Positions 8,464-13,090 of a stretch of 37,578 bases of DNA are shown here, in pieces. Every line of letters starts with the position of its first letter. Within the stretch, counting starts at the first letter, position 1. A program made the position numbers and the translations under genes. Below the pieces are notes generated by a model. That model saw nothing but the letters and a program-made list of their open reading frames with translations. It did not search any database and was not told where the DNA came from. Source of the stretch: Bacteriovoracaceae bacterium (GTDB lineage: Bacteria > Bdellovibrionota > Bacteriovoracia > Bacteriovoracales > Bacteriovoracaceae); the NCBI GenBank assembly GCA_020630335.1, contig JAHDBN010000013.1:1-37578 (forward strand), given 5' to 3'.

Positions 8464-10206
8464 ATGAAAATATTAATGATGTTTATTTTAAGTTTATTAG
8501 TAAGTTGTGGGAACTCTCATCTTACTGATCCGGAACCAGATGCAAATTCAGGCGCATCAGAAGGCTCACCTATTATTTCAGCTTGCTTGCATCCTCAAGC
8601 TGAGAATTATCAACCACAAAGTGGACTAGCTGATGCTGGAGCTTGTACTTTTAAAGCATGTGATAATGCAGGTTTTGCTGAGCACAGTCTAAGAGATGCT
8701 TATCATGCATATATATTATCTTATGGTGGGGAAATTTTAAATGATCCATCTAAATGTATTCATCAAAAAGAAGATTACTCTAATAAATGTGAAAATCCAC
8801 GAGCATATAATTTTCAATTAGCAGAAGATTGTAAGTTTAAAGCTTGTAGTGATGAAACTTTTGTTGATCATTATGAATATCTTTCTTTAGTTTCTCTTTA
8901 TGGAGCAGCAGTTGAACATGATCAAAGTAAGTGTGTTACTAAAAAAGCTTATCCAGGTTGCATGAATGAGACTGCGAGTAATTATAATGCAAATGCAAAC
9001 CAAGAAGATAAAAGTTGTAAATTCACACTATGCCTAGATAGTGCTTTTGAAGAGTTTGATCTTGCAGAAAATCAATCTGTTTTTTCAGCAGCAAGTTCTT
9101 ATGCTTTAGCAAATGGGTTAAGTGTAATAGATCTTGTGGGAGAAAACACATGTAAAACTCAAAAAGATTATGAGGTTGCAGGTTGTACGATAGAAGGTGC
9201 AATTGGTTATTCCTCTGAAGCCACAATAGATAATAAAAGCTGTAGATGGAATGCTTGTTTAAATCCAAACTATGAAGAACATGATGCTGATTTAGCTGCA
9301 ATTATTGAAGCTTATAAAGAAGAACATGGTGGGGCATTGGAAGATTATCACACGAATACTTGTGAAGTTGCTAAAGATGTTTATGGATGTACGGCACCTA
9401 GTGCAAATAATACAGACGCTGGAGCAACTGCAGATGATGGAAGCTGTAAGTGGTCAGTTTGTCTTGATCCCTTATATGAAGAGTATGATTCAAGCTTTCA
9501 AGTTATCTTAGATAGCTATGTTTCTCTTCATGGAGAAAATATAGATTTTTATAATTCAAGTAGTTGTACGACTTTAAAACCTGTTTTAGGTTGTACTATT
9601 CCAGGAGCAACGGGTTATAGTGCAGAAGCAACTCAAGATAATGGTAGTTGTCGTTGGGAAACTTGTCTTGATTCTAATTACACTGAATATGATTCTGATT
9701 TAGCTTCTATTATCTCTGATTATATTGCTGCTCATGGTGGAGATCAAAGTACTTATCATACAAGCACCTGTTCGGTTGCTAATCCAATTTATGGATGTAC
9801 TCAGCCTACAGCAAGTAATACTGATAGCAATGCAACACATGATGATGGAACTTGTATGTGGAATACTTGCTTAGATTCAAACTACGTAGAATATGATGCT
9901 CTTATTGAGATTATTATCAATGGTTATGCCGCAGTTAATGGTGGTGTGAGTGCTGATTATTTCTCTAGCACTTGTGTGACTCCAGTCTCTGTTGAAGGGT
10001 GTACTGATGAAGATGCAGAAAATTATAATCCTAACGCATCTATTGATAATGGAACTTGTCACTGGATAGCTTGTTGTAATGAAGGCTATAGTAATTCGAC
10101 TACTGCAGATGAAAAGCTAAAGTATCATAATTATGCACAAGAGCATGGTGGAGATCTTATGGATTACATCACATTAAGTTGTGAAGGACTTCCATACGGA
10201 AACTAG
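8464..10206 (+). CDS. Cysteine-rich tandem-repeat lipoprotein (first paralog)
   Basis: A 580-residue lipoprotein: signal peptide with lipobox ending LVSC (Cys15), a short linker, then nine tandem units from residue 41 to the end. The unit is about 68 residues with four cysteines: GCTxPxAxNYxxxATxDDGSC, then W/F-x-x-C, an aromatic/acidic YxEYD stretch, a helix ending HGG, and a closing TC. Four successive units, starting at nucleotides 9181, 9385, 9589 and 9793, are each exactly 204 bases. The GCTxPxAxNY…DDGSC element resembles repeats in large surface proteins of Bacteroidetes and other marine bacteria; no enzymatic motif is present. I infer a disulfide-rich rod or binding protein on the cell surface or in the periplasm. 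The next gene is a tandem paralog sharing the SCGNSHL start. Confidence 0.85.
   Translation: MKILMMFILSLLVSCGNSHLTDPEPDANSGASEGSPIISACLHPQAENYQPQSGLADAGACTFKACDNAGFAEHSLRDAYHAYILSYGGEILNDPSKCIHQKEDYSNKCENPRAYNFQLAEDCKFKACSDETFVDHYEYLSLVSLYGAAVEHDQSKCVTKKAYPGCMNETASNYNANANQEDKSCKFTLCLDSAFEEFDLAENQSVFSAASSYALANGLSVIDLVGENTCKTQKDYEVAGCTIEGAIGYSSEATIDNKSCRWNACLNPNYEEHDADLAAIIEAYKEEHGGALEDYHTNTCEVAKDVYGCTAPSANNTDAGATADDGSCKWSVCLDPLYEEYDSSFQVILDSYVSLHGENIDFYNSSSCTTLKPVLGCTIPGATGYSAEATQDNGSCRWETCLDSNYTEYDSDLASIISDYIAAHGGDQSTYHTSTCSVANPIYGCTQPTASNTDSNATHDDGTCMWNTCLDSNYVEYDALIEIIINGYAAVNGGVSADYFSSTCVTPVSVEGCTDEDAENYNPNASIDNGTCHWIACCNEGYSNSTTADEKLKYHNYAQEHGGDLMDYITLSCEGLPYGN
8584..10206 (+). repeat. 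Nine tandem four-Cys units (68 residues / 204 bases)
   Basis: The units begin at the Cys codon at 8584 and repeat to the stop. Early units vary in length (for example 225 bases between 8956 and 9181); those beginning at 9181, 9385, 9589, 9793 and 9997 are spaced exactly 204 bases. Units at 9181 and 9589 resemble each other (GCTI-GA-GYS…SCRW…YHT-TC-VA) and those at 9385 and 9793 resemble each other (GCT-P-A-NT…DDG-C-W), an A-B-A-B pattern implying duplication of a 408-base pair of units. The copies have diverged at DNA level, so the array is not freshly expanded. Confidence 0.85.
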
Positions 10207-10229
10207 TTAAATTAATGAAGGGCAATAAA

Positions 10230-12299
10230 ATGAAAAAAATAATAACTTTAATAATTTTCGCAGTTGGGTTAACTAGCTGCGGGAATTCACACCTTTTTGA
10301 TCCAGAAGATAAAGTTAATACTGGAAGTTCTCTTTCTGGGACACCGACAACAACAGGAATCTTACCTCCCTTTACAGGAGGAGGCGGAGGATCTCTAGAT
10401 GTTTTGCTTTGTCATCATCCAGATGCCGTAAACTTTGATTCAAGTATGTGGACAAGTCCAGGAGCTTGTACTTTTACAGCTTGTGATGATGAAAGCTTTG
10501 TAGAGCATGATTTAAGAGTTGAGTATCAAAAATATATTGATAAGCATGGTGGAAGTATTTTAGATGATCCCGGAAAGTGTAAAGATAAAAAGCAAGGAGA
10601 AGGTTATTGTGATGATGCTTTGGCATCGAATACAGGAGCTTATGAAACTTGTATCTATAAAGGTTGTGGACTTGAAGGATATTATGAGTATCAAATCTAT
10701 CAAGATTTAATTACATTACATGGAGATAAAGTCCAAAGGGATGATTCTCTTTGTCTTACTCCAATTCTTTATCCAGGGTGTACGAGCTTATTAGCTGAAA
10801 ATATGAATCCTGAAAGTGATGTAGATGATGGAACATGTGTATTTAAAGCTTGTACAGATGAAAATTTTCAAGAATATAATGTAGATATTATTACAGCTAT
10901 AGCTAGTTATGCTAGTGAACATGGACTAAATTTTGATGAAATTAATAGTTCTGAAGGGCAATGTCTTACTCCTATAGCAGTGAGTGGTTGTATGATTGAA
11001 GGAAGTTTAACTTATAATGAGCATGCAACGATTGAAGATGGAACATGTAAATGGTCAGCTTGTTTGTTAGAGCAGTATCAAGAATACGATGGAGCAATGG
11101 AAATTTTAATTCAAAATTATGCTCAAGTTCATTCTGTAAGTAATGTAAATGATCTAGTGGTGAGTACTTGTCAAAATTTAAGGCCTAAATGTGAGGACTC
11201 AAGGGCTGAAAATGAAGGTAAGTATGAATTATGTCATTATCATTTATGTGCTGATCCTCTCTATGAAGAGTACCCTTTATATTTAGAAATAAAAGCACTT
11301 GCAGATGCAGGACAAGCAACGATGCAGACTAGTCCAAGCTATTGCATTAATTTAATTAAAAAAGAAGGATGTTTAGAAGAAAGTGCAGAAAATACAACGA
11401 TAGGTGCTAACCATGAGAATGGAACTTGTTTATGGAAGGCTTGTCTTGATGAAAAATATGAAGAGTATAATGCACTAACAGCTTCTATCATTCAGTCTTA
11501 TGCGAATCAGCATGGTGGTGGTGTAAGTAGCTATTATGAAAATACTTGTAAAACATTAAAGGCCAAAGTTGGTTGTACAGATCCAAAAGCAGATAATTAT
11601 GATTCATCTGCAGAAGTAGATAATAAAACATGTAAATTTAAAGTTTGTACCGATTGTAAGTATGTTGAGTTTGGAGCAAATGGTTCTGGAACAGCTTATC
11701 AAAAAACACTTGCAGCGAGTGCTTATGCTAATCTCCATGGCTTAAGTTTTACTTCTGTGATTGTTGATAATTGTAAAACTCCAATAGGAACTCATGGATG
11801 TACTGATCCATATGCAAAAAATTATAAAGGTAATGCATGGAGTGATAATAAGACATGTGTTTACAAGGCTTGTTTGTCAGGAGCAAATTATGGTGGAGGA
11901 AGTTCAAACTTCATGACACCTTTTATTAATGCTTACGCATTAGAACATAGTTTAAATATAGTAGAGACAACTCAAAATGTTAGTAATTCTAGTAATGGAA
12001 AAGTTTATGTTGTAAAAACTTGCCATGCAGGAGCTAGAAAATTAGTGATTAATTTAGACTCTGAATGCTTAAACAGTCCTTATAATAGTGCTTATATCAA
12101 AGTTCAAAGAGCAGGATTGCCGACTGTTAGCAGGCCTTTAACAACGCCACAAAATACAGCTGTTTATGATGTTACTAATGGACAAAGTTATTCTGTAGAA
12201 ATTATTAATGGAGGAGTTTCGGTTTATCACTTCTCAGGAACACAAAGTGTTAGTGGATCAATTAGTGGTGATACTATTCACGAAATAAGTTGTAAGTAA
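10230..12299 (+). CDS. Cysteine-rich tandem-repeat lipoprotein (second paralog) with extra C-terminal domain
   Basis: About 689 residues. I choose the ATG at 10230 over the ATG at 10215 because AAGGG lies 7-11 bases upstream and the signal peptide then starts normally (MKKIITLIIF, lipobox LTSC, Cys17). After a Gly/Thr-rich linker (GGGGGS near residue 50) come eight four-Cys units like those of the gene before it, from residue 61 to about 599. Unlike the first paralog, a non-repeat C-terminal segment of about 90 residues follows, beta-rich in appearance with two further cysteines (…LDSEC… and …EISCK at the end). Both proteins begin SCGNSHL-x-DPE, and their first two units correspond, so they come from gene duplication. 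The gap between the genes is 23 bases, so they are one operon. Function unknown; a surface or periplasmic role is inferred. Confidence 0.85.
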   Translation: MKKIITLIIFAVGLTSCGNSHLFDPEDKVNTGSSLSGTPTTTGILPPFTGGGGGSLDVLLCHHPDAVNFDSSMWTSPGACTFTACDDESFVEHDLRVEYQKYIDKHGGSILDDPGKCKDKKQGEGYCDDALASNTGAYETCIYKGCGLEGYYEYQIYQDLITLHGDKVQRDDSLCLTPILYPGCTSLLAENMNPESDVDDGTCVFKACTDENFQEYNVDIITAIASYASEHGLNFDEINSSEGQCLTPIAVSGCMIEGSLTYNEHATIEDGTCKWSACLLEQYQEYDGAMEILIQNYAQVHSVSNVNDLVVSTCQNLRPKCEDSRAENEGKYELCHYHLCADPLYEEYPLYLEIKALADAGQATMQTSPSYCINLIKKEGCLEESAENTTIGANHENGTCLWKACLDEKYEEYNALTASIIQSYANQHGGGVSSYYENTCKTLKAKVGCTDPKADNYDSSAEVDNKTCKFKVCTDCKYVEFGANGSGTAYQKTLAASAYANLHGLSFTSVIVDNCKTPIGTHGCTDPYAKNYKGNAWSDNKTCVYKACLSGANYGGGSSNFMTPFINAYALEHSLNIVETTQNVSNSSNGKVYVVKTCHAGARKLVINLDSECLNSPYNSAYIKVQRAGLPTVSRPLTTPQNTAVYDVTNGQSYSVEIINGGVSVYHFSGTQSVSGSISGDTIHEISCK
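10410..12027 (+). repeat. Eight tandem four-Cys units in the second paralog
   Basis: Units begin at the Cys codon at 10410. They keep the four cysteines and the pattern GC-x(9-14)-G-x-C-x-W/F-x-x-C…Y-x-E-Y…H-G-x…C, but vary more in length than in the first paralog (roughly 57 to 75 residues). The best-kept units contain GCLEESAENTT…GTCLW and GCTDPKADNYD…KTCKF. The last unit is extended before the final KTC. Confidence 0.8.
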
Positions 12300-12306
12300 A
12301 ATTGAA

Positions 12307-12345
12307 AATAAAGCTCTAGATTTTCTCTAGAGCTTTATTGTTTTT
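12307..12345. terminator. Bidirectional intrinsic terminator between convergent genes
   Basis: A perfect 14-bp stem (AATAAAGCTCTAGA at 12307-12320 with its complement at 12326-12339) closes a 5-base loop. On the plus strand GTTTTT follows; on the minus strand a TTTT tract follows too. It ends the repeat-lipoprotein operon and overlaps the last codons of the minus-strand gene ending at 12327, so it probably serves both. Confidence 0.88.
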
Positions 12346-13037
12346 GCTTGTTGAGACATAACTTTAAATAATTTTGCAACAGAATCTTCAATACTTGAAA
12401 AAACTCTACCCGTAATAAAAGATTTATTTACGAGCCAATGATCCGTAGACATTGTATATTTATAAGTAACCTTTATTTTGTTAGAAGAGAGTTCTTTTAC
12501 TATAAATGTAGAAGAAGCGTTTTTTATTGTCGCATCAAATTTTAAATTTTTTCCTGTTAACTTTTTACTAAGCTTATCATCTATAGATTTATCGACTATT
12601 GTGTAATGTTTTACACCACCGATGTATTCCTCTTTGATAGTTATAAGTTGTTGAAGAATTTGATTTCCTTGTTTTTTGATATACTTAGTAGCGACATAAT
12701 CATGCTTGGAATATCCAGGAGTAATGATTTTATATTTTACAGATTCTACAACATCTTCACTGTGAAATTTACATTCATAATTTTTAGATGAAAATCTTCT
12801 AGAGCTTTTCAAGCTATTATCACATCTATCATCTGTTCTTTTATAAGCTTCTATAAAAGATTTAGCTGATTGATTTATAATCTTCGAAGTTTCGGCGAAA
12901 TAATGTCTGAAAGAATCTACTTTTCCAGTCTTAAAGTTCATCTGGTTTCTAGAAAGTTGTTTATCAATCTCAATAGAGTTGTCTATTTTTGAGAAAAGAG
13001 GGGTAGATAATATGATTGTAATAAATAAAAATTTCAT
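12327..13037 (-). CDS. Exported protein of unknown function (possible START-like fold)
   Basis: About 236 residues from the ATG at 13037; the frame opens at a GTG at 13070, but the later start gives a clean signal peptide (MKFLFITIILSTPLFS). The mature protein is basic and ends in alternating beta strands and a long C-terminal helix (HWLVNKSFITGRVFSSIEDSVAKLF), an arrangement like START/SRPBCC lipid-binding proteins, but I see no diagnostic motif. It has two cysteines (DDRCDNS and YECKF) that could form a disulfide. It lies about 50 bases downstream of the kinase gene on the same strand, so it may be part of the two-component operon and act in sensing, or be a target. Confidence 0.65.
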   Translation of the reverse strand: MKFLFITIILSTPLFSKIDNSIEIDKQLSRNQMNFKTGKVDSFRHYFAETSKIINQSAKSFIEAYKRTDDRCDNSLKSSRRFSSKNYECKFHSEDVVESVKYKIITPGYSKHDYVATKYIKKQGNQILQQLITIKEEYIGGVKHYTIVDKSIDDKLSKKLTGKNLKFDATIKNASSTFIVKELSSNKIKVTYKYTMSTDHWLVNKSFITGRVFSSIEDSVAKLFKVMSQQAKTIKL

Positions 13038-13090
13038 AACATTTAGTTTACCTATATTGAGCAATGACACAGCTTGTAGTTAAAAACTAC

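Follow-up and report, generated by a model that had tools for sequence, protein, structure and literature searches.

Two adjacent lipoproteins of a Bacteriovoracaceae bacterium share an unnamed four-cysteine unit and belong to a family of modular bead lipoproteins

The window analyzed here is the whole stretch of 37,578 nucleotides at positions 1 to 37,578 of contig JAHDBN010000013.1 (Bacteriovoracaceae bacterium, assembly GCA_020630335.1), in which two adjacent genes, lpA and lpB, encode lipoproteins that carry tandem arrays of a four-cysteine unit. The unit is a real, unnamed, lineage-restricted bead that is used as whole lipoproteins, and lpA and lpB are two of the six members of a modular stalk-plus-head lipoprotein family rather than an isolated pair. 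On balance, we think it somewhat probable that these proteins are disulfide-stabilized stalks holding heads off the outer membrane, in a family that serves contact with, or capture of, cells or particles.

A four-cysteine unit repeated eight times in each protein

The two genes and their units were located as follows.

8464-10206, plus strand: lpA, 580 amino acids (aa); lipoprotein with eight four-cysteine units, mature residues 15-580, without a C-terminal head
8584-8787, plus strand: lpA unit 1, membrane-proximal type
8788-8958, plus strand: lpA unit 2, short (57 aa), of a type shared with lpB unit 2
8959-9183, plus strand: lpA unit 3
9184-9795, plus strand: lpA units 4-6, the segment modeled by AlphaFold2 (predicted local distance difference test, pLDDT, 94.1)
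9796-9999, plus strand: lpA unit 7
10000-10203, plus strand: lpA unit 8, with an extra Cys beside C3 (CC, 10072-10077) that is kept in the ortholog of genome G001
10215-12299, plus strand: lpB, 694 aa; lipoprotein with eight four-cysteine units plus a C-terminal domain; likely start ATG at 10230
10410-11999, plus strand: lpB units 1-8, starting at residues 66, 132, 189, 259, 326, 386, 454, and 529
11997-12296, plus strand: lpB C-terminal domain of about 95 aa, with mainly beta structure in a model of low confidence; shares 76% identity with the G001 ortholog

The unit has the form C1-x18-C2-x4-C3-x~34-C4-x~8, with length variants, and spans 57 to 75 residues. Eight units were counted in each protein, or 16 in total; the preliminary description of this DNA, which gave nine and eight (17), had one too many for lpA. 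Its figure of about 35 cysteines per protein agreed with the counts of 34 in lpA and 36 in lpB, corresponding to cysteine contents of 5.9% and 5.2%, respectively, versus about 1% in the other proteins of the window. A hidden Markov model (HMM) built from the lpB units alone found all eight lpA units with 373.7 bits (best of 1,000 shuffles, 12.1), and the reverse HMM, built from the lpA units, found all eight lpB units with 315.0 bits (best of 1,000 shuffles, 8.1); these cross-searches confirmed that the proposed four-cysteine repeat is real. The pattern C-x18-C-x4-C occurred six times in lpA and six times in lpB, compared with a shuffle mean of about 0.1.

Across 24 diverse units, only C1, C20, C25, Tyr44, and C60 were invariant, with Ala6 and Ala13 nearly so, and the motif C-x4-A-x-N-Y-x(n)-D-[DN]-G-[ST]-C was present in most units. 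Units 1 and 2 differed from the remaining units in both proteins: the 57-aa unit 2 lacked the length of the DDGSC loop in both, and the two first units were 52% alike, above every other pairing of an lpA unit with an lpB unit. Between species, the best-kept lpA unit was unit 2 (77%). Recent tandem duplication at the DNA level was considered and rejected, since no tandem array of unit length was found, and slippage at that level is now unlikely.

The full unit had no match at curated cutoffs in Pfam, NCBIfam, PHROGs, or PADLOC, where only subthreshold or unrelated matches were obtained, and searches of PDB sequences with the protein, the unit profile, and the lpB head returned nothing. Pfam matches to DUF3774, GP44, and Phage_connect_2 were judged spurious, being short or unrelated. 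The earlier statement that the full unit fits no nameable family thus held, with no end-to-end match to a Pfam domain, and a literature search yielded no account of the unit or of proteins like these in this bacterial group. The calcium-binding Cys/Asp repeats of thrombospondin type 3 resemble the unit in cysteine spacing and in their Asp-Gly loop, but they gave no Pfam match at E values up to 10, and the second half of the bead unit is helical.

The first 20 to 25 residues of the unit match a short motif, GCTDPxAxNYxPxAxxDDGSC, of marine viral and other large extracellular proteins, for which no Pfam or NCBIfam model was found. As the preliminary description had noted for large surface proteins, this part occurs by itself, without the full unit, in large proteins of marine viruses and also at locus L064. 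The viral copies, from 30 loci, share the C1-x18-C2 spacing and the DDGSC end with the unit, but in 336 of 371 profile stretches the match stops no later than profile position 32, and a single one spans the unit; beyond the viral motif, lpA and lpB add C3, a 14-residue helix, and C4. We know of no lipobox role for the viral short-motif proteins. A viral or plasmid origin of lpA was discarded, with no related locus found in viral contigs, plasmids, or phages.

Predicted structure and cysteine pairing

AlphaFold2 was run on lpA units 4 to 6 with ten aligned rows and gave a mean pLDDT of 94.1 and a predicted template modeling score (pTM) of 0.59. Each unit in the model contained short strands around C2 and C3, a 14-residue helix with Tyr44, and, ahead of C4, a short turn or strand. 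Single beads look well defined in this model and their mutual placement does not, because a pTM of 0.59 leaves it unsettled; of the defined fold and linear rod expected earlier from a three-unit prediction, the fold was obtained with confidence and a straight rod is unproven. A Foldseek search with the three-unit model found no PDB chain at E <= 0.001, which for a small, flexible, multibead query is no proof of a new fold, and none of the 153 PDB chains realigned to this small, flexible model with VIA-align had Z >= 2. In a viral structure library, the model gave 10 matches at E <= 0.001 (down to 4e-10) with low TM-scores, and these are read as local matches to the short motif because the viral copies lack the helical half in nearly all cases.

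The cysteines of the units probably form disulfides. Indirect support came from six-cysteine units, in which the two extra cysteines co-occur (112 units) and so appear to have been gained in pairs. Both this genome and its nearest relative had odd mature cysteine counts in lpA and lpB (33/35 and 37/35), and the count was 99 in all four orthologs of a 1220-aa class of the family; therefore, one free or interchain cysteine per protein is possible in lpA, lpB, and these orthologs. An odd cysteine was located in lpB unit 7 at 11655-11657 (CTDC), and the fourth cysteine of lpB unit 8 is displaced to just past 11999. A DsbA/Thioredoxin_4-type lipoprotein gene (CRHC; L009, 9422-10483, minus strand), which adjoins the two genes with 100 cysteines and 6-Cys units, was dropped as evidence for disulfides; the other three genomes of the genus lack it at the corresponding locus.

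A family with N-terminal arrays and variable C-terminal heads

The host genome, a draft of 2.36 Mb, encodes six bead lipoproteins, and the four members besides lpA and lpB are the following: two of 1224 and 1273 aa encoded in tandem (C5), one of 823 aa (C27), and one of 2105 aa (C31). A search with the unit profile across 369 genomes of the phylum detected about 45 units per genome in the genus (four genomes), about 25 in G137, which belongs to another genus, and 2 in G006; all remaining matches were weak or limited to the short motif. Among named relatives, the Bacteriovoracaceae metagenome assemblies JAHDHG010000052 (L065) and CALHLC010000035 (L066) are the nearest. Family members were found at the same loci across the genus. 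The position of the lpA/lpB locus is conserved, with an enoyl-CoA hydratase gene on one side and, on the other, a gene for a small secreted protein and then genes for a PAS histidine kinase and a response regulator; the number of bead genes at the locus is two in G001 and three in both G002 and G003. Identity of lpA and lpB was 50 to 61% to G001 and about 35% to G002, a faster divergence than that of most flanking genes. Unit number varied between orthologs (8 versus 9 in lpA; 9 to 11 in the wider group), and the 1220-aa class was present in all four genomes with 1217 to 1224 aa, 16 detected units, and 100 cysteines.

In the family architecture, a lipobox is followed by a linker, the array, and the head; in every case the array occupies the N-terminal side and the variable part the C-terminal side. 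The C-terminal domain of lpB, which the preliminary description did not mention, was detected in no genomes beyond the four of this genus, and lpA ends with its last bead. Between species, the last unit of lpB (74%) and its head (76%) were better kept than the other units (47 to 65%), which would be expected were the head the working end. The 823-aa class and a 734/747-aa class, the latter in G002 and G003, carry a vWA-like domain with DxSGS at their C-terminal end; Pfam searches for a vWA/MIDAS domain found none in lpA or lpB and subthreshold matches in the paralogs only. In G137, one to four units are followed by Vps10/BNR-type propeller repeats, with a lipoprotein cluster at L059 and L061, and one G137 protein (L062) has an HEXXH-containing segment. 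The 2105- to 2265-aa class has a long C-terminal region with one CxxCH.

The 2105-aa member itself (L011, 4912-11229, minus strand) has about 20 detected units, then the CxxCH heme-type motif and two EF-hand/dockerin-like stretches; this CxxCH is conserved in L041 and L042 and can also be seen in L043. The G001 counterpart of its gene (L043, 3337-10075, minus strand) consists of two overlapping open reading frames (ORFs) of 574 and 1674 aa, owing to a frameshift or an assembly error. Two genes at the lpA/lpB locus were also noted. A secreted 247-aa protein (window 12327-13070, minus strand), with no Pfam family, is encoded next to the lipoprotein genes in all four genomes, beside the PAS histidine kinase and response regulator, and an extra 681-aa lipoprotein-like gene of G003 (L037, 12728-14773, minus strand), with NANLF near the N terminus of its product, separates the bead genes from the enoyl-CoA hydratase gene.

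Lipoprotein signals and a box after the lipid cysteine

The following signals were found in and around the gene pair.

8464-8505, plus strand: lpA signal peptide, lipobox LLVS; codon of the lipid Cys15 at 8506-8508
8506-8532, plus strand: lpA lipid Cys and post-lipobox box CGNSHLTDP
10278-10304, plus strand: lpB lipid Cys22 and post-lipobox box CGNSHLFDP; lipobox GLTS
12307-12339, plus strand: terminator-like hairpin with a 14-bp stem and a T-rich tail on both strands

Two adjacent lipoprotein genes had been described, and the analysis bore this out: the ORFs are codirectional and 8 nucleotides apart, and both products have a signal peptide with a lipobox ending in cysteine, of the signal peptidase II type (LLVS-C15 and GLTS-C22). 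The Pfam LPAM_1 match was weak, and lipoboxes were found in nearly all complete family members. An extracytoplasmic location of lpA and lpB is predicted because of the lipobox, and the earlier placing of all cysteines outside the cytoplasm stands to that extent. A Shine-Dalgarno-like GGGGAGA precedes lpA, and GAAGGGC lies upstream of the ATG at 10230, a better lpB start than 10215. An abundant product had been proposed from a strong ribosome-binding site and terminator; the GGGGAGA and the hairpin are present, but such signals show no abundance, and no promoter candidate exceeded the shuffled-sequence level. The hairpin could also serve the convergent gene.

In most members, the lipid cysteine is followed by the box N-[SA]-[HN]-L-[FY]-D. 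A pattern search of four genomes gave 36 matches, compared with 23 for the reversed-pattern control; among the matches read in detail, 19 directly follow a lipobox, and the others, except one, lie in frames of at most 45 aa. At least six box-bearing lipoproteins (L110, L111, L128, L130, L134, and L137) have no bead, and a stricter form of the box is mostly confined to this genus among 125 genomes of the family. The box could, by analogy, be a candidate lineage-specific sorting or export signal for lipoproteins, or it could reflect simple shared ancestry of the N terminus. The Bacteroidota lipoprotein export signal (LES) is K-(D/E)2 or Q-A-(D/E)2 (PMC5080379). It differs in sequence from the present box, for which export is putative, and the speculative likeness lies in a short conserved box right after the lipid cysteine that is common to otherwise unrelated lipoproteins and might work in the same way. 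The G137 lipoproteins at L059 and L061 have a different post-lipobox consensus, C-[SG]-[LM]-x-T-[KNS]-V.

Proposed stalks with heads and alternative explanations

The N-terminal arrays and variable C-terminal heads, together with the conservation of the lpB head, are the main ground for reading these proteins as stalks with heads. In this reading, lpA and lpB would be outer-membrane lipoproteins with a mature part of about eight disulfide-stabilized beads in a row. The array would most likely act as a stalk or spacer and keep a head at a distance from the membrane; this head would be a small beta domain in lpB and a vWA or propeller-like domain in the relatives. Headless lpA may be a filler or partner stalk, or its last bead may be what it presents. 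A stalk role is likely, exposure on the outer leaflet is suggested by analogy, and adhesion by the bead lipoproteins is plausible; contact with, or capture of, other cells or particles would most likely be the function of the family.

In myxobacterial TraA, cysteine-rich tandem repeats have been proposed to form a rigid stalk presenting a PA14 recognition domain on the cell surface (PMC3325183). The bead arrays may work like these repeats, as an analogy and not as family membership, whereas TraA combines a type I signal with an N-terminal head and a MYXO-CTERM tag, and lpA and lpB have an N-terminal lipid anchor in a family with C-terminal heads. No NCBIfam match to the TraA-type repeat was obtained, although the presence of TIGR04201 in that release was not separately checked. 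Bd0875 of Bdellovibrio bacteriovorus, a member of the same phylum, is a MIDAS/vWA-family adhesin needed for prey invasion (PMC11003981). The two paralog classes with a vWA-like domain and DxSGS resemble it, short of family membership; lpA and lpB have no vWA domain, and no four-cysteine bead array is reported for Bd0875 in the part of the source that was read.

Several points weigh against stalks with heads. lpA has no head, the vWA matches of the paralogs are below Pfam cutoffs (E values of 0.0015 to 0.02), the pTM of lpA units 4 to 6 leaves bead-to-bead geometry undecided, and the full-length lpB model is of low confidence (pLDDT 49, 3 sequences). In addition, surface exposure is argued from analogy only, and the data examined contain no sign that this uncultured genus is predatory.

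The absence of a head from lpA, which is made of beads alone, would suit an array in which the beads themselves bind, as a multivalent binder of metal (e.g., Ca2+ via the DDG loop), glycan, or peptide, with length setting avidity and heads being secondary. The arrays are strongly acidic (lpA has a pI of 4.2, with 88 D+E versus 24 K+R), and the D-[DN]-G loop is well conserved from unit to unit. We nevertheless regard such binding as unlikely: beyond the four cysteines, Tyr44, and Ala6/Ala13, few positions are fixed, so that no conserved binding site is evident, and the Pfam thrombospondin type 3 models, as stated above, did not match. Periplasmic spacers, which would lie at the inner face of the outer membrane and, as struts, connect it to the peptidoglycan or inner membrane, are compatible with the lipobox, which by itself is no proof of surface exposure, and with the near-constant, ruler-like 1220-aa class. 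They seem quite unlikely, however: Pfam and NCBIfam searches found no peptidoglycan-binding domain, the heads of relatives (vWA, propellers, and a metalloprotease-like segment) resemble contact or substrate domains, and arrays of 1200 to 2100 aa appear long for a periplasm. An abundant protective or redox-buffering coat, in which the lipoproteins form a disulfide-crosslinked layer, possibly between chains via the odd cysteines of lpA unit 8 and lpB unit 7, would draw on the odd mature counts given above but is highly improbable, as the vWA-type members and the pair-locus genes of G002 and G003 have even counts.

Implications

Stalks with heads remain our preferred explanation, and it could be extended, as a tentative possibility, to an undescribed disulfide-bead fold that one predator-related lineage uses as a general extendable stalk, with interchangeable heads and delivery to the surface by the lineage-specific N-[SA]-[HN]-L-[FY]-D signal. 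The presence of six large cysteine-rich lipoproteins built on one unnamed unit in a 2.4-Mb genome suggests heavy investment in one surface or envelope device. The unit is a ready structural target, and the post-lipobox box makes lipoprotein sorting in the phylum testable. If the stalk-and-head explanation is true, these proteins would be defined candidate contact proteins for uncultured Bacteriovoracaceae, whose adhesion and prey recognition are hardly known.

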